Part shown: in pieces, positions 139 to 9,908 of the stretch | Numbering within the stretch: position 1 is the first letter of the stretch | Layout of the letters: each line of letters begins with the position of its first letter | Origin: Oscillospiraceae bacterium | Lineage (GTDB): Bacteria; Bacillota; Clostridia; Oscillospirales; Ruminococcaceae | Assembly: GCA_017545185.1 (NCBI GenBank) | Contig: JAFWQJ010000008.1 | Location: 1 to 64,000 of the forward strand | Reading direction: 5' to 3' | Length of the DNA: 64,000 nt | Notes under the pieces: model-generated | Databases searched by the model: none | Seen by the model: only the letters and a program-made list of their open reading frames with translations | What the model was told of the DNA's origin: nothing | Translations under genes and position numbers: made by a program

Positions 139-1461
139 ATCTCTCCGAACAGTATTCTTGTTTCAGGCGGTCAGACTACGGTTGCTAACCTGTTTTACAA
201 CATGGCACGAAAAGCCGTCGGCCTTGTCGGCTTGTGGGACTGTGTCGCTTTTGATGAAGTCGCCGGTATCAAATTCAAGGACAAAGACGGCATTCAGATC
301 ATGAAAGATTACATGGCATCCGGCTCGTTTGCTCGCGGCAAAGAAGAAAAGGCTGCATCTGCGTCTATGGTCTTTGTCGGCAACATCAATCAAAGCGTAG
401 ATGTGCTGCTGAAAACATCCAGCTTATTCGATCCGTTCCCGCCGGAAATGGGTACGGACACAGCATTTCTGGACAGAATCCATTGCTATCTGCCCGGTTG
501 GGAAATTCCGAAATTCCGTCCAGAACATTTTACGAACGATTACGGCTTTATCACGGACTATCTTTCGGAGTTTATCCGTGAGCTGCGGAAAGAGCAGTGC
601 GGTGATGCGCTGGATCGTTATTTCCGGCTTGGTACGAATCTGAATCAGCGCGACACAATCGCTGTTCGCAAAATGGTCGGCGGTCTTGTGAAGCTGTTGT
701 ATCCGGACGGCAACTATACAAAGGAACAGCTTGAGGAAATCCTCAAAATCTCATTGGAGATGCGCCGCAGAGTGAAGGAACAGCTCAAAAAGCTCGGCGG
801 AATGGAATTCTACGATGTGAATTTCTCCTATATCGACTTGGATACATCAGAGGAACACTATGTTTCCGTCCCTGAACAGGGCGGCGGAAAGCTGATACCG
901 GAAGGTGTGTGCAATCCAGGACAGGTATACACTGTTGGACGCGGCAAATCCGGTATGCTCGGCGTGTTCAGACTGGAATCACAGATGGTTTCCGGTAACG
1001 GAAAGATCGAGCGCACCGGCATCGGCACTGACCGTGAAGCAAAGGAAGCATCGAATACGGCATTCCATTTCCTGAAAGCAAATGCTTCTCGAATCAGCGC
1101 ACATATCGACATTTCTTCGCAGGATTATGTCATCAACTATCAGGATTTGCAGGGTATCGGCATGACATCGACACTTGCACTGCCGACGCTGATCGCTATG
1201 TGCTCTGTTTCGCTTGGAAAGCCCGTTCTCAGCTCGATGGCAGTCTTGGGCGAAATCAGTATCAGCGGAACGATTATTAAGACAGATGAGCTTGCCAATT
1301 CTTTACAGGTGTGCCTTGACAGCGGCGCAAAACGTGTGCTTTTGCCTATCACATCGGCAGTTGATATTGCAACGGTTCCGCCGGAATTGATCGGTTGTTT
1401 CCAGATTCTTTTCTACAACAGCGCGGAGAATGCCGTATTCAAGGCTCTTGGTGTTGATTAA
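139..1461 (+). pseudogene. brxL: brxL, BREX Lon-like protein, 5'-truncated by an IS
   Basis: The product matches the central and C-terminal parts of BrxL, the AAA+/Lon-like component of BREX phage defence. Seen are the SILVSGGQTTVANLF block, a Walker B-like stretch WDCVAFDEVAG, NINQ, the FYDVNFSYID and VSVPEQGGGKLIPEG stretches, and a Lon-type C-terminus (SGAKRVLLP, ending KALGVD). Complete BrxL is about 680 residues; about 440 remain here. The N-terminal domain and Walker A are missing because an insertion sequence abuts at 138. An open frame begins at 88 inside the IS (MEVVFLS...), so a hybrid product could be made, but it would lack the P-loop. The missing 5' half may lie beyond the IS, outside the window. 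Family assignment is confident; function is almost certainly lost. Confidence 0.85.
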
Positions 1462-1506
1462 GCGGTATAACCCAAAAGTAGTGTAAGTCATGAAAAGGAA
1501 GAGAGG

Positions 1507-4500
1507 GTGATCAGATTGAATACGGAACAATCAATCTTGGATATCCTTTACAACTATGATGTATATGATACACTAACGAAATTATCTGCTCTAAACCTAT
1601 TACCATATAATCAAAATAAAGCAATTATTTTTGATTATGTTATTGACCTAATCCTACATGAGAAAAAAGAGCAGTTTCAATCTAATAGAAAGATATCTCG
1701 ACATCGTCTGGAACAAATTATCGGGCTCTCCTATCAGGTGAATCGGCACGCTATTGATCCAGCTGAAATGCCATTTGTTCAGAGAATCCAGTTTTATGGT
1801 AATAATTGGATTATGTGCGGAATCAATACAGATTGCGGCTATAATCTTCAAACCCTTATTAACTCTATTTTTCTTAGGGACAATAATCTTTCGTCTGATT
1901 TCAAAGACACAGTAAGCAGATTTCTTGAAGCAATACTTCGTATTTCAAATTCAATTGCAACGAACCTAGGCTTTTCTATGCAATCATTAGGACATTTTGA
2001 AAAGCAAAGAGTCGATGTCCCAGACGGAAATACATTGAAAAAGATGACTGACGCAATTTCATTCTCCATAGACGAGTTGAATGGCATAATTGAAGAACTG
2101 GAGATAGAATACTTATTCTCAGATTTTAATACTGTTAATCCGGCTTTAGAGAATTACGAATATGATTTTTGCTTTCATCCCTTTCTTATGATTTCTTCTA
2201 AGGAATTCATCTGTTTGAATCCGACTGTTTTTGCAACATTTGCAATTCATCGTATATTAGAATTGTCGCAGGACTATAATATGTATTCTGAACTCCTAAT
2301 CGGTTTTAATAACGAATCCTGGGCGCAATGTAAATCATATTTGAAACCACTAGGACATTTATGTATCAATGAACAATCTATTGGCATTGAGTTGCAGAAT
2401 ACGGTGTCATACAAAGAAAAACTATTATCATTATCGAATGGCATACTGGTTTTATTTTTTCTGAGCAGCACTTATCCGACTGAGCCAGATGAAATAGATA
2501 GTTACTTGCCTATGGATCTAAAAACAAGATTTCAGGAAATTGAAGCCCAATTACCAGTTGAGGTCAATCGAGATAGAGTGTATGTATTAACCGTAATATC
2601 AAGGCTAAGCGGAACTATAATTCATGGCTTTTCTGATGTTCCGCCTAAAATGCTCACTCTTCGTCCTTTTGAATTACAATGTATTTCCATAAATGAGGAC
2701 AGCCTGTTTTTGCCGCGTTATATAGATGCTGAAGAAAAGATGCATTTTCACAAAATGCCTACTATTGAAGATGCCTTAGATAAAATCTCCTACTTTACCT
2801 CAGCAGACTATTCCTTTTATACTGCTGATGATGTCGATTTAAGAGGCTCGGTTTCCATAATCGGTGTTGGAGATGCTGTGGATTATATTAATAAAGCATT
2901 ACTGAAAGAAGATCGCCAACTTATTGAATCACCGGATTCACAGTATTATACCGAAGTGGTTAGCCAAGATGCAAAAAGAGCACTCTATTGTCCGACAGCA
3001 TTTAATGATCGAATTATGCTGCTTTTGCATCTGCACAATATTGACATCTGGATATCTTCTGATTTATATACAAAATCTGACGAATTAAGTGTTTACTATT
3101 CGTTGGTTGATCTCATTTCATATTGGTTGGGTGAGGTGAGGTGCATATTGGAAAAACATATTTTCCCTTTTTCTTCGATAGTAATAATTAACAAGTTAAC
3201 AGATGATATTGAAAAATACTACCATGAGCAAGAATTATCATCGCCTCTCCAAGAGTTACTTAATCTCAAAATGGATAAGAATGTTGTTCAGTTGTTGTGG
3301 ACACCGGAAGCATATTATTCCGTATGCCAATCTGGTAACGAAAAGAAACTCATCGAGGTGATTCTAGATAATTTATTTAGCAATTTAAGTGCGGATCGAA
3401 GTGACTATCATCTTGAATCGTTCTTTGATTCTCCGCTAAAGCAAAGAATGCAAATATTAGAAAGCGACACCTATCCTTATCTTAAGCCAATTAATGAGAA
3501 ACCGCGATTTGTATTGAGCTTATATGAAAATCAAATTCTGGATGAAATCGGACTCCATTTTCATTCGATGGGTTTGCCTTATGGTGAAATAACAAGCATC
3601 AAAAAAGATGCCGTATGCAATAAAATAGTAAGTTTTCTTTATAAAAAGTTTACGGGAATAATTTCAAACTACTCCTCATTTTCACTTTGCAAAAAGGCAT
3701 ATTATGACTTGGAAATAATCATGTTCCAGATGATGCAGTCACAAAAAAGGTTTGCTTATGATATTGCTTGCTATCCAGAGAAACGCGCCGAAATCGAAAG
3801 CTCATTTAATGAACTAAATAAATCTTCTATAGCTATAAAATTCTTAATTGAATATGCTTCGTCTGTTCAAAAATCAGGTGAGAAGTATGTTGATGAACTT
3901 GATTACGATTACTTGATTGCTTTATGTTCTCAGATTGTGAATTGGGCGAATACGGGTGATCTCTTTCATAATAATATCATTGATGAAAAAATAACGCTTT
4001 TACAATCCAATAGAATAGGAATAAATAAAGCTGCAATTAACCGGCTTACTCATTATAATTACCAAGCGTACAAAACAAGATTAAATCAAAGTTCTGATCC
4101 CTCAAAGCTAGGTTATTACAACCCCTGGGATGAATTAGTTGATTCAGATGCTATCAACGAAGCATTCGTTGAAGAATATGGATACAGCTTTTCTGATTTA
4201 GCGAGTCTCATTATGAGCATGGTCGTTTTAGGAAATGAATATGAAGAAGAGATCAAGCAAGCTAGTCTCGAAGACATTGTTCAAAAAATCAGAAGTCTTT
4301 CTTCTGAAACCATCAATAGAATAATAGATGACTTCAGTAATATTGCTCGTGAAGATTTCTTAAATCCGCCATCTCCATTTACTGGAAATGATGTTTATCC
4401 CTGGCGCTTTAATAGACGTCTTTCATTTATTCGCAGACCAATTCTAAAATTCGAGAATGAACTCATATGGGGCAATCGACAATTGTTTCATAATTTTTTA

Positions 4501-5058
4501 TTCTTGACTGACCTAATCAAGGAGGGGAAACTAGCAACCAAAAAAGGAAAGCTACAAAAGCTGATTGGAAAGATTGCCAATAAATCCGGTAATGATTTTA
4601 ATGATGCTGTTGTAAACAAGATTCGATCCTTAGGATATTCGATGGTATTTAGCAAAGTAGAAAAAATAAATCGAAAGAAAATAGAGTTCACACATGGAGA
4701 AACACTTGGCGATATAGATGTTCTGTTTATCAATCCAAAAAAGAAAAAAATAGTAGTGATTGAGGCGAAGGAGTTTTCGTTCTCTAAAACCGCATATGAA
4801 ATGTATCGGGAGTATTTAAAGCTGTTTTGTGACAGCGACAAGGGACCATGTTATATTACAAAACATAAAAAGAGAGTAGCCTGGGTTAAAGATCATATTA
4901 CTGAGTTGGTTGAACAGTATCATCTCAATCATGGAAAATGGTTAGTTTCAGATGCTTTGGTTGTAAACCAACCAATTGTCTGTAATGATTTTTATCATTG
5001 CCAACAGAAAATAGTATTATTTTCTGAACTGTCTACAGAAGTGCTCGATAAACTTTAA
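1507..5058 (+). CDS. Large protein with C-terminal PD-(D/E)XK nuclease-like motif, behind brxL
   Basis: A 1,183-residue protein I cannot assign to a named family. It is mostly alpha-helical in appearance, without signal peptide or membrane segment. The recognisable part is near the C-terminus: G-D1069-I-D1071-VL, then 14 residues, then E1086-A-K1088 on a hydrophobic strand (VVIEAK). This is the core of a restriction-endonuclease-like fold (compare NERD or Mrr types). It starts 45 bp after brxL on the same strand, so it was probably in the BREX operon. The GTG at 1507 or the TTG at 1516 could be the start; a GAGAGGG ribosome site suits the latter. Base composition is strikingly AT-rich against both brxL and the chromosome, a sign of separate transfer. 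The nuclease role is inference from the motif only. Confidence 0.7.
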   Translation: MIRLNTEQSILDILYNYDVYDTLTKLSALNLLPYNQNKAIIFDYVIDLILHEKKEQFQSNRKISRHRLEQIIGLSYQVNRHAIDPAEMPFVQRIQFYGNNWIMCGINTDCGYNLQTLINSIFLRDNNLSSDFKDTVSRFLEAILRISNSIATNLGFSMQSLGHFEKQRVDVPDGNTLKKMTDAISFSIDELNGIIEELEIEYLFSDFNTVNPALENYEYDFCFHPFLMISSKEFICLNPTVFATFAIHRILELSQDYNMYSELLIGFNNESWAQCKSYLKPLGHLCINEQSIGIELQNTVSYKEKLLSLSNGILVLFFLSSTYPTEPDEIDSYLPMDLKTRFQEIEAQLPVEVNRDRVYVLTVISRLSGTIIHGFSDVPPKMLTLRPFELQCISINEDSLFLPRYIDAEEKMHFHKMPTIEDALDKISYFTSADYSFYTADDVDLRGSVSIIGVGDAVDYINKALLKEDRQLIESPDSQYYTEVVSQDAKRALYCPTAFNDRIMLLLHLHNIDIWISSDLYTKSDELSVYYSLVDLISYWLGEVRCILEKHIFPFSSIVIINKLTDDIEKYYHEQELSSPLQELLNLKMDKNVVQLLWTPEAYYSVCQSGNEKKLIEVILDNLFSNLSADRSDYHLESFFDSPLKQRMQILESDTYPYLKPINEKPRFVLSLYENQILDEIGLHFHSMGLPYGEITSIKKDAVCNKIVSFLYKKFTGIISNYSSFSLCKKAYYDLEIIMFQMMQSQKRFAYDIACYPEKRAEIESSFNELNKSSIAIKFLIEYASSVQKSGEKYVDELDYDYLIALCSQIVNWANTGDLFHNNIIDEKITLLQSNRIGINKAAINRLTHYNYQAYKTRLNQSSDPSKLGYYNPWDELVDSDAINEAFVEEYGYSFSDLASLIMSMVVLGNEYEEEIKQASLEDIVQKIRSLSSETINRIIDDFSNIAREDFLNPPSPFTGNDVYPWRFNRRLSFIRRPILKFENELIWGNRQLFHNFLFLTDLIKEGKLATKKGKLQKLIGKIANKSGNDFNDAVVNKIRSLGYSMVFSKVEKINRKKIEFTHGETLGDIDVLFINPKKKKIVVIEAKEFSFSKTAYEMYREYLKLFCDSDKGPCYITKHKKRVAWVKDHITELVEQYHLNHGKWLVSDALVVNQPIVCNDFYHCQQKIVLFSELSTEVLDKL

Positions 5059-5094: not shown

Positions 5095-5153
5095 AAAACA
5101 GAGCGGCCATTCCGGTTATCACACCGGAACGGCCGCCGAATAAATACTGTTTT
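5095..5153. terminator. Bidirectional terminator between convergent genes
   Basis: Arms 5103-5116 and 5123-5136 form a 14-bp GC-rich stem with loop TATCAC. An outer AAAACAG/CTGTTTT pair (5095-5101, 5147-5153) supplies U-runs in both directions. It serves the large nuclease-like gene and the AlbA_2 gene. A close relative of this hairpin lies at 6660-6693. Confidence 0.8.
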
Positions 5154-5157
5154 GTTC

Positions 5158-6558
5158 TTATTCTTTTATTGTGATATACTTCTGATTCTTACTGTTAGGT
5201 TTATCAGGTATCGTTCTTGTGAGTATTCCTTGTTCCAGTAATGGGTTGAGATATTTTCGCACAGTTTTCTTGTCTTTATAGCCGAGCATTTCTGCAATCT
5301 CAAGAATGCTGTGGGGATTCTTGCAAAAGGCAATAATCCTGTCCTGAATATCATTCCCATTAACTGGGGGATTAACTGTGGGAATTCCACCAGTTGGATT
5401 CCACAAGTTAATCCTGGTAAACGGAATTGTAACAGAAATCGCGTTATCTTTAAATTGGAACGCTTCTTCGCCATATACGGCTGTAATCCGCGGAACACCG
5501 CGCCCGCTCTTTTCACTGATATGAAGCTGCAAGAATATCTCTGAAAGCTTCTGATTCACCGGAATGGATACACCACCGAAAAAGCCATCCTTTGTCTGAT
5601 TCGGCGGCAGCGTACCAAGAGAAATAATCTCTATGTGATCTTCATAAGCCGTAAACATCGGAGCATCGCCGCTTACCCATAGATTGTGGACAAATGCATT
5701 GATAACCGCTTCATGAAAAGCATCTTTATCAAAAAGCATAACCTCTTTGCGTTCCACTCTGCGGTTCCGTTCATCTGCCTGCGGAATGTTCATCGTATCA
5801 CCAAAATCCAGCACCTTATCCAATGACATAAGCAGACACATATTGCCGAATTCTCTGACGGTATACATTGTGGAAGATTTATCTTTGCCGCTGAAAACAG
5901 CAAATCGAATCGGAATATGCGGCTCATCTGACAACAACTGTGCCAGCATATTATACTTTCCGTCTTTTGTCAGAAGTTCAAGATTTTTCTTGAATGACCT
6001 TTTGTTCAGCTTGATTCCGTGTATGTCGTAATAGAGAAACAGCTGATCAAAGGTCAGATCGGTAAACCGGGATTCAGTATTGAGAAGATTAGGAAGTCCG
6101 TTGTTCAGAACACGGAATAATTCCGCCTCACGGTCAGGATACTTTGCAAGGTTCACCTTGCTTGAGCCTATACGCAGATAACGGACAGCTTTGTATGCAG
6201 TCGGAACCGTATGAGCAGCCGGAATACGGAGTACTACAACGCGCTTTCCGTGAATCATGTCTTCTTCAAAGCGAAAATAGATTCCGGGTGTGACATTCCT
6301 CGCCAGATAGTGCTCCAGAGGTTCATTTTTGACATCCTGATGATAATTGAACTTTGTATCGGTTAATTCATGGGTGGAGTTGTGAATCCCCCAGATCAGG
6401 AAGCCTTCTTCTTTGCCAAGCATGGCAGCGGCATTGGACAGCGATGAAATATACTCTCCGATACCGTCCGGTTCATACCATCCGTCCTTAAACTCAAACC
6501 AGCTCTGTTCTTCAGTGTATGAAATACATTCAGCAATCAGTTCAGAAATTGTAAGCAC
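5158..6558 (-). CDS. AlbA_2/Schlafen-type ATP-binding protein with winged helix
   Basis: A 466-residue protein of the AlbA_2 (Schlafen-like) plus GHKL-like family often annotated as a transcriptional regulator or ATP-binding protein and common in defence islands. The AlbA_2 domain occupies about residues 10-140 (SWFEFKDGW, then GFLIWGI). A degenerate HATPase part lies at about 270-375, with FHEAVINAFVHN as the N-box and SGRGVPRI as a G-box. A winged helix follows at about 400-455 (ILEIAEMLGYKDKKTVRKYL). Start is GTG 6558 after AGGGAGGG. A consensus promoter lies upstream. It converges on the brxL/nuclease genes inside the island. Whether it regulates or executes defence cannot be read from sequence. 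Confidence 0.8.
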   Translation of the reverse strand: MLTISELIAECISYTEEQSWFEFKDGWYEPDGIGEYISSLSNAAAMLGKEEGFLIWGIHNSTHELTDTKFNYHQDVKNEPLEHYLARNVTPGIYFRFEEDMIHGKRVVVLRIPAAHTVPTAYKAVRYLRIGSSKVNLAKYPDREAELFRVLNNGLPNLLNTESRFTDLTFDQLFLYYDIHGIKLNKRSFKKNLELLTKDGKYNMLAQLLSDEPHIPIRFAVFSGKDKSSTMYTVREFGNMCLLMSLDKVLDFGDTMNIPQADERNRRVERKEVMLFDKDAFHEAVINAFVHNLWVSGDAPMFTAYEDHIEIISLGTLPPNQTKDGFFGGVSIPVNQKLSEIFLQLHISEKSGRGVPRITAVYGEEAFQFKDNAISVTIPFTRINLWNPTGGIPTVNPPVNGNDIQDRIIAFCKNPHSILEIAEMLGYKDKKTVRKYLNPLLEQGILTRTIPDKPNSKNQKYITIKE

Positions 6559-6636: not shown

Positions 6637-6659
6637 GAGGAGGCTATGAAAAAACAAAA

Positions 6660-6693
6660 GCAGCCATCCCGGTTATCATACCGGAACAGCTGC
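6660..6693 (-). terminator. Terminator-like hairpin, paralogue of the 5095-5153 hairpin
   Basis: Arms GCAGCCATCCCGGT and ACCGGAACAGCTGC enclose TATCAT. Read leftward the stem is followed by TTTTGTTTTTTC, so it would end a leftward transcript entering from the island border. Sequence and loop resemble the hairpin on the other side of the AlbA_2 gene. Confidence 0.6.
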
Positions 6694-6733
6694 CGTAATA
6701 AATCGTACAGAGGTACATCATTTCCTGAACTAA

Positions 6734-8377: not shown

Positions 8378-9022
8378 ATGGCAAGACCGTTTGGCGTTAA
8401 TGACGCAAAATCATTAAATGACGAACATCGTCAGCTGCTCAGCAAACTCGAAGCTGAACAGACTGCTCTGCAAACTTACCGTGAAACTATCAAGAAGTAC
8501 TCTGATCAACTTGTTACGAAAAGAGTATTAGAAATACTACAGGATATTCCAATTGAAGAAATCAACAATAGGGGGAAACGCTCATTTCGTGTTAAAGCGC
8601 TTCGGGACAACGGTTATAGAACAATTGCTGATATAGCATCTGCTTCGGTACATTCCATATCATCTGTCTATGGTGTCAGTGAGGACGCTGCTTATTCAAT
8701 CAAACGAATTGTCAACGAAATGACGGCGCAAGCCAGACAGGGCTTCAAAATACATCTAAGTACGGATAATAAGACAAAAGAATCCTCTAAACTGATTCTA
8801 TCAATATATCTTTTTAAGCTGCTACAGCCTCTTATCAAGTCAGTACAACAGCTCTCAGATACTAATCGCTCTAAAATACTGTCCGCTATATCAGATATTG
8901 AAGCTGTAAACGGAAGACTGAAATGGTTGTTCTCATCAAAGGACAAAAAGCATAAGGCAATGGAATCGTATTGCCTACTGACTGATAATATTTATGCTGT
9001 GCAGTCATTTGATTGCAGATGA
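8378..9022 (+). pseudogene. N-terminal fragment of an SNF2-type helicase (probable)
   Basis: A 214-residue frame starting MARPFGVNDAKSL after a good GGAGG site. About residues 60-110 look like a helix-hairpin-helix region (VKALRDNGYRTIADIASASVHSISSVYGVSEDAAYSIKRI). From memory this is the N-terminal region of large SNF2/DEAD helicases that sit beside DprA-like genes. No ATPase motif is present and the frame ends soon after CLLTD, so the rest of the gene appears deleted at about 8985. The tail overlaps the dprA-like frame by 29 bp. A short stand-alone DNA-binding protein is the alternative. Confidence 0.5.
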
Positions 9023-9908
9023 ATCTTGCAAACCGTTTGAACCGTCAGAATGGTCAAGGCTTGCAGAAAAAATGATGCAGGCAGGATTGCAGCCGAAAGA
9101 CCTGCCCGATTTGACAGATGCCGATTACCTTGATCTTGAAATCGATTCAGCTGAAGGACAGCGGATCCGGCAGTTGATCCGACGCGGTGCAAATCTCACA
9201 TTTGAACTGGAGAAATACGAAAACCTAGGCATTTCTGTTGTCACTCGTGCAGATAAACAATACCCCAGTATACTGAAAACAAGACTTGGAAAAAGCTGCC
9301 CGCCGCTATTTTACTATGCTGGTGATCTGTCACTTGCTGCGAAACAAAGCATAGGTTTTGTCGGTTCCCGCGGCGCAGATGAAGGCGATCAGGCATTCAC
9401 GGAACAAATCGTAAATACGGTCAATGGACTCAATTATTCTGTCGTTTCCGGCGGTGCAAAAGGCGTGGATTCGATTGCAGGTGATGCTTCATTGCGAAAC
9501 GAGCATACATCGGTTGCATATCTTGCCGATTCAATGGTGAAACGTATCCGGAATCGAGAAACAATCGCCGCTATTCAATGCGGAAAACTGCTGCTGTTAT
9601 CTGCGGTACGTCCGGATATGGGCTTTACTGCTGCAACAGCTATGATGCGAAACCGTTATATCTATGCGCAGTCTGCCGGAGCTGTGATTGTGCGTGCAGA
9701 TTACAAAAAAGGGGGAACCTGGACCGGTGCTGTGGATTGTATAAAACACAAGATTTGTCCGGCTTTTTGCTGGAATAATCAGGAATACCGAGGCAACCGG
9801 GAGTTGATTCAACTCGGTGCTGTTCCGATAGATGCAGATTGGGACGGAGATGTCACAAATGTGCCGCCGCCCGCAGAAGAGGAAGTCCAGCTGACGCTGT
9901 TCGGATAA
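8994..9908 (+). CDS. DprA/Smf-like DNA-processing protein
   Basis: 304 residues with a DprA-type Rossmann domain: SIGFVGSRGADEGDQAF, then YSVVSGGAKGVDSIAG and a C-terminal AGAVIVRAD...GGTW block. Competence DprA binds ssDNA and loads RecA; divergent homologues like this one sit in defence and mobile regions. The ATG at 8994 (MLCSHL) is directly at the helicase-fragment junction. Family members usually have a few more N-terminal residues, so the start may be rebuilt by the deletion. The neighbours are helicase fragments and a MazG-like gene. Its RF-fold is clear; its actual partner is not known. Confidence 0.8.
   Translation: MLCSHLIADESCKPFEPSEWSRLAEKMMQAGLQPKDLPDLTDADYLDLEIDSAEGQRIRQLIRRGANLTFELEKYENLGISVVTRADKQYPSILKTRLGKSCPPLFYYAGDLSLAAKQSIGFVGSRGADEGDQAFTEQIVNTVNGLNYSVVSGGAKGVDSIAGDASLRNEHTSVAYLADSMVKRIRNRETIAAIQCGKLLLLSAVRPDMGFTAATAMMRNRYIYAQSAGAVIVRADYKKGGTWTGAVDCIKHKICPAFCWNNQEYRGNRELIQLGAVPIDADWDGDVTNVPPPAEEEVQLTLFG

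Follow-up and report, generated by a model that had tools for sequence, protein, structure and literature searches.

A divergent Upx-like gene behind a brxL remnant probably encodes a stand-alone anti-phage nuclease

The stretch of DNA analysed here (the window: the first 64,000 nucleotides of contig C82, from a 94-contig Oscillospiraceae genome assembly that is 95.18% complete) carries, directly behind a truncated brxL, a gene for a complete 1183-residue protein that is probably a divergent full-length homologue of the anti-phage protein Upx. Homology to Upx is established, as is the invariance among relatives of three residues typical of a nuclease core, D1071, E1086 and K1088. Because of this homology, the motif and the varied neighbours of its relatives, we consider it likely that the protein is a stand-alone nuclease that belongs to the wider Upx family and would protect against phages without partner proteins.

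The gene (positions 1507-5058, plus strand) is a single uninterrupted reading frame of 1183 codons with a GTG start, and it begins 45 bp past the end of brxL at position 1461 on the same strand, as the initial annotation had reported. By eye, a TTG at 1516 has the better spacing relative to the GGAAGAGAGG stretch and may be the start in place of the GTG at 1507, which would put it three codons further downstream, a minor point. The range given in the initial annotation, 139-5058, contains the Upx-like gene but spans two genes, positions 139-1461 being the C-terminal 440 codons of brxL. The remark that the gene is AT-rich and unlike brxL in composition agrees with a G+C content of 34.4%, against 49.1% for the brxL piece.

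Upx is said to have been first described by Gao and colleagues in 2020, among single-gene defence systems. The window protein matched the PADLOC Upx model (PDLC02221) with an E value of 2.7e-27 and the NCBIfam model Upx_antiphage (NF042954) with an E value of 1e-26 and 92.5 bits, residues 881-1136 being the best-matching stretch in the latter; as the curated cut-off of this equivalog model is 1900 bits, we describe the protein as Upx-like and not as a Upx equivalog. Seven relatives likewise scored below the cut-off (151.8-640.2 bits), and the best match to the Upx model was that of a remote relative, the G1051 protein (locus L031), which aligned end to end with 640 bits, matched the solved chain 9wuf_A with an E value of 1.2e-112 and is 19% identical to the window protein. 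The Upx model was matched by all 18 rows of a family alignment (A4), which comprises the window protein and 17 proteins from 16 of 17 related loci (the split gene of L043 is left out, L051 contributes two copies, and the L048 and L049 proteins are partial), and no other PADLOC model was matched at E ≤ 1e-3; Shedu (SduA), which is, as proposed for the window protein, a single-protein PD-(D/E)XK defence nuclease, was thus matched neither by the window protein nor by any A4 row.

Positions 18-1168 of the 1215 in the A4 profile aligned onto residues 39-1227 of the 1272 in 9wuf_A (E 5.5e-62), and the sole other solved-chain match at E ≤ 1 was to a 60-residue chain (E 0.44). The profile and Upx-model matches suggest that 9wuf_A, whose database name is 'Restriction endonuclease', is itself a Upx protein. 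This alignment takes in the first ~1,050 residues, which the initial annotation had left unassigned. Full-length collinearity with Upx is seen with the family profile; the window sequence alone matches mainly over its C-terminal part. Like Upx, the window protein is the product of a single gene, has a similar length (1183 residues against 1240-1271 for the models and 1272 for the chain) and, in the family profile, keeps the same order along the chain; similarity to the Upx models, this order and the C-terminal PD-(D/E)XK residues together place it, probably, in the wider Upx family. It differs from Upx in its low identity to the G1051 protein, in its score far under the equivalog cut-off and in its taxonomic placement, its branch being one of Bacillota whose base carries rows from Chloroflexota and Acidobacteriota. 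According to a published account (PMC12629846), Upx is nearly confined to a single hotspot of the Pseudomonas island PAGI-1.

Conservation along the protein is concentrated towards the C terminus. Identity to the window sequence among 16 full-length rows, taken in 60-residue steps, peaked at 0.41-0.48 over residues 961-1140 and was about 0.2 at residues 121-360, 541-600 and 841-900. The PD-(D/E)XK-type core (positions 4594-4887, plus strand) comprises F1031, GDID (residues 1068-1071), E1086-x-K1088, E1098, H1120 and R1123. All 23 rows of an alignment of the 200 C-terminal residues (A5) share F1031, G1068, D1071, E1086, K1088 and R1123, and E1098 and H1120 are conserved at 90% or more. The GDID-x14-EAK pattern first annotated near the C terminus is indeed present, with GDIDVL from residue 1068 and EAK at 1086-1088, and 9wuf_A has GDIDLL and IECK in register with it; in both proteins KH and R come after the GDID and E-x-K core. 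Ahead of the core lies a conserved block, NDVYPWRFNRRLSFIRRP (residues 961-978; positions 4387-4440, plus strand), within which P965, W966, N969, R970, S973, R976 and P978 are invariant in the 18 A4 rows. Since the window protein has no Pfam match at E ≤ 1, the predicted C-terminal restriction-endonuclease-like fold rests on the Upx homology and the motif. The window protein has no Walker A motif.

The window protein is conserved far beyond chance: one relative matched its residues 9-1180 with an E value of 2.5e-236, and relatives were found in genome contigs at 17 further loci. The nearest relative is 38% identical to it. In a midpoint-rooted tree with long branches, in which the exact place of the window branch is unsure, the window protein grouped with those of L053 and L037 (support 100/99). 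Matches were rare at every rank sampled: 3 of 396 genomes in the host's family (E ≤ 1e-3; one of them, G056, weak, with 27% identity over 106 residues and E 2.6e-4), 2 of 394 in the order, 3 of 391 in the class and 7 of 398 in the phylum, each count including the window's own genome and queries and thresholds differing between ranks. Relatives also lie on Deinococcus, Sinorhizobium and Bosea plasmids; the plasmid collection yielded 6 records, two of them short Salmonella records and none covering 80% of the query. No relative was found in the phage collection or, with alignment A1, among viral contigs. When genome contigs were first scanned with the window protein alone, 0 of 22 candidates were confirmed; of six other genomes in a further search, G1083, G900 and G1120 gave short matches, G900 and G1120 having no BLAST match to the window protein, and another search newly matched G1253 and G1501. 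In a Pyrinomonadaceae genome, two Upx-like genes that differ from each other stand in tandem with 5 bp between them (L051, 10073-17451). The 17 loci, the profile match to 9wuf_A and the Upx matches in all 18 rows rule out a family without known relatives.

The brxL upstream of the gene is a remnant. Positions 1-138 are the end of a repeat, found at 16 places in the genome including the window with 98-100% identity, so that brxL lacks its N terminus on this contig. The sequence past the repeat differed at all 8 places compared, the window included, and 11 of the 15 other copies are visibly at a contig edge, the remaining 4 not being judgeable; no transposase was seen at the repeat, and it had no match in the plasmid collection. 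It is probably the end of an insertion sequence in a fragmented assembly. The abutting piece (139-1461, plus strand) is clearly from a type I BREX brxL (BrxL_ATPase, E 3.4e-101; PADLOC BrxL, 239-680 of 680; TIGR02653, 235-674 of 675) and corresponds to residues 248-687 of a 687-residue homologue, the first 247 being missing. A search of the source genome covering the brxL N terminus, BrxC and PglZ (PF08665) found none of the three, and hence no intact BREX operon. The BrxC query, confirmed as such by its match to solved BrxC (E 9.2e-171), hit 5 of 5 other genomes with brxL; PF08665 gave matches in 2 of 14 named genomes, close relatives not being among that test set, and the query for the brxL N terminus had no control. 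With the assembly 95.18% complete, the absence of BREX genes is likely, not certain; the genome seems to hold only a remnant of BREX, with an assembly gap possible.

A rival reading is that the gene encodes an auxiliary BREX effector, made with brxL and backing up PglZ. Among the proteins that recur beside BREX, a 2026 survey (PMC12839542) names PD-(D/E)XK effectors and Schlafen-histidine kinase-wHTH proteins. The window protein resembles the former in its PD-(D/E)XK-type motif and in adjoining a BREX gene, on the same strand and 45 bp behind it, and the convergent gene at 5158-6558 resembles the latter. In G1051, moreover, the remote relative shares an island with a type 4 BREX locus (BrxP-BrxC-PglZ-BrxL; L031/L032); it is on the opposite strand, at a distance of about 3.6 kb, with a DUF262 (GmrSD_N) gene in between. 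Against this, twelve BREX proteins (seven from a type I locus and five from a type 4 locus) were searched against 483 open reading frames in 27 loci, and matches were confined to L032, the source stretch of five of the queries. The type I BrxC, PglX, PglZ and BrxL queries were checked against solved chains, BrxA and BrxB were labelled by gene order, and two of the twelve queries are unnamed locus genes. BREX genes were found in 0 of the 17 related loci, the DNA covered being less than 10 kb per side for several. Conversely, none of 17 stretches of 1.2 to ~9 kb on the 3' side of brxL in 16 related genomes carries a Upx-like gene, the other 8 of 25 brxL places being the window's own or outside the examined set. 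On these two results, within the DNA covered, a BREX subunit was rejected. In the family sample brxL occurs in 23 of 392 genomes (E ≤ 1e-40), compared with the 3 of 396 matched by the window protein, and the term 'Upx' is absent from the main text of the survey. Co-occurrence with BREX among relatives thus comes down to the one remote relative near type 4 BREX, and with the local BREX a remnant we regard a BREX effector as very improbable and the BREX link of the gene as weak.

Ten proteins from nine stretches downstream of other brxL genes included DolA, DolB, a match to Orf5/HEC-06, a WYL protein and one weak ZorC match, five being without a match; the region 3' of brxL resembles a slot whose cargo changes and consists in part of defence genes. 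The initial annotation had left the choice between a BREX-linked and an independent defence nuclease open, with a single-protein system as a possibility; the independent half is favoured by the Upx homology, the invariant D, E and K and the lack of a recurrent companion gene among the neighbours tested. The BREX-linked half is not supported, though the remote G1051 relative speaks for it.

The neighbours of the relatives are varied and often defensive. Among 21 chosen neighbouring proteins in 13 related loci, a PADLOC match at E ≤ 1e-20 was found in 8 loci: a PifA/KAP NTPase (L038), PDC-S22 (L040), type III (L042), type II (L043) and type I (L050) restriction-modification, OLD-like and PDC-S72 (L044), a PtuA/OLD-like ATPase (L047) and mad3-like ATPases (L053). 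The other five (L039, L041, L046, L049 and L052) gave no match at this threshold; a 22nd scanned protein, about 14 kb off on the L037 contig and without a match, is excluded from the count. Outside this set, L018 adjoins an Avs2-like NTPase, and the surroundings of L021 include a HamB-like helicase as well as genes with TIR and caspase annotations. Non-defence neighbours occur as well, including flagellin (L041), FUSC and glycosyl hydrolase 3 (L047) and a LysM/beta-lactamase-like protein (L030/L046), and a partial relative in G1013 is flanked by a permease, a carboxylase and altronate dehydratase. A Tn916-type integrase lies near the gene at L041, and putative serine recombinases were read by eye at L037. 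No companion gene recurred among the neighbours tested. G+C content was compared at 12 of the 17 loci, and at 11 of these (L052 being the exception) the Upx-like gene was lower than its flanks, by more than 3 points in 8 and by 2.5 points or less in 3; this fits the separate arrival that the initial annotation had read from composition.

Other features of the window lie close by. The convergent Schlafen-type gene (5158-6558, minus strand) encodes Schlafen AlbA_2, HATPase_c_4 and Fic-like C-terminal domains (PF04326, PF13749 and PF21247); it is context, separate from the Upx-like gene, and a BLAST search of BREX and Upx loci turned up nothing related to it at E ≤ 1e-5. Its make-up is close to that of a recurrent BREX-linked effector in PMC12839542. 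Two 36-bp hairpins (5102-5137 and 6659-6694, minus strand), alike in 31 of 36 bases, flank it, and the exact 18-base pattern of the hairpin core occurs at these two places only, genome-wide; the pair may mark a gene cassette or be a duplicated terminator. Further on, a helix-hairpin-helix protein gene overlaps one for a DprA-family protein (8378-9908, plus strand), near defence genes, and the Upx relative carried by the Sinorhizobium plasmid likewise has a DprA gene nearby (L020, 13835-14791).

As a working model, the C-terminal PD-(D/E)XK domain would cut DNA using D1071, E1086, K1088 and a bound metal, and the ~950 N-terminal residues would keep this domain inactive until the protein meets phage DNA or a DNA intermediate made by the phage. 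The nuclease fold is predicted from sequence, and DNA as the substrate, a sensor function of the N-terminal residues and protection against phage are predictions too. Exchange of defence genes in and out of this slot would account for the place of the gene behind a broken brxL; it would not be there as a BREX subunit. The same sequence evidence would also fit a Upx-like protein that cuts host DNA on infection (abortive infection) in place of phage DNA: the large N-terminal part without a Walker A motif could be a sensor, and the lack of a recurrent companion immunity gene among the neighbours tested would fit an enzyme held in check until triggered. A literature search found no account of the Upx mechanism or of 9wuf, and we hold this alternative to be possible though rather unlikely. 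Decay is a further consideration, the gene adjoining a truncated brxL and some relatives being broken: in Anaerobutyricum hallii DSM 3353 the Upx-like gene falls into two reading frames (L043, 9905-13576), and at L049 only the C-terminal 367-codon portion was found. The window gene, by contrast, runs uninterrupted through 1183 codons with its three catalytic residues present, which makes a functionless passenger, like the adjacent brxL, improbable.

Arrangements at three loci touch on a more speculative role. The Upx-like gene lies on the same strand 64 bp after a type III enzyme gene at L042, 241 bp after a type II enzyme gene at L043, and 79 bp after a 233-aa gene, itself behind a type I enzyme, at L050. 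Restriction-modification genes thus lie upstream in 3 of the 14 loci with an upstream open reading frame, a count that is at most suggestive, and in the window the gene follows brxL. It is conceivable, at long odds, that Upx-like proteins of this branch form a second line behind DNA-modification defences, their genes being retained immediately 3' of restriction-modification or BREX operons and the proteins firing once a phage inhibitor disables the first system.

If the gene product is, as we prefer to read it, a stand-alone Upx-like nuclease, the attractive idea of a new dedicated BREX nuclease at the brxL locus loses ground. The Upx defence family is already known; what is new is the divergent branch. 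With it, a family named by a strict model extends to a divergent branch in Bacillota and to the Chloroflexota and Acidobacteriota rows, and the alignment points out residues worth testing in the Upx-like branch.
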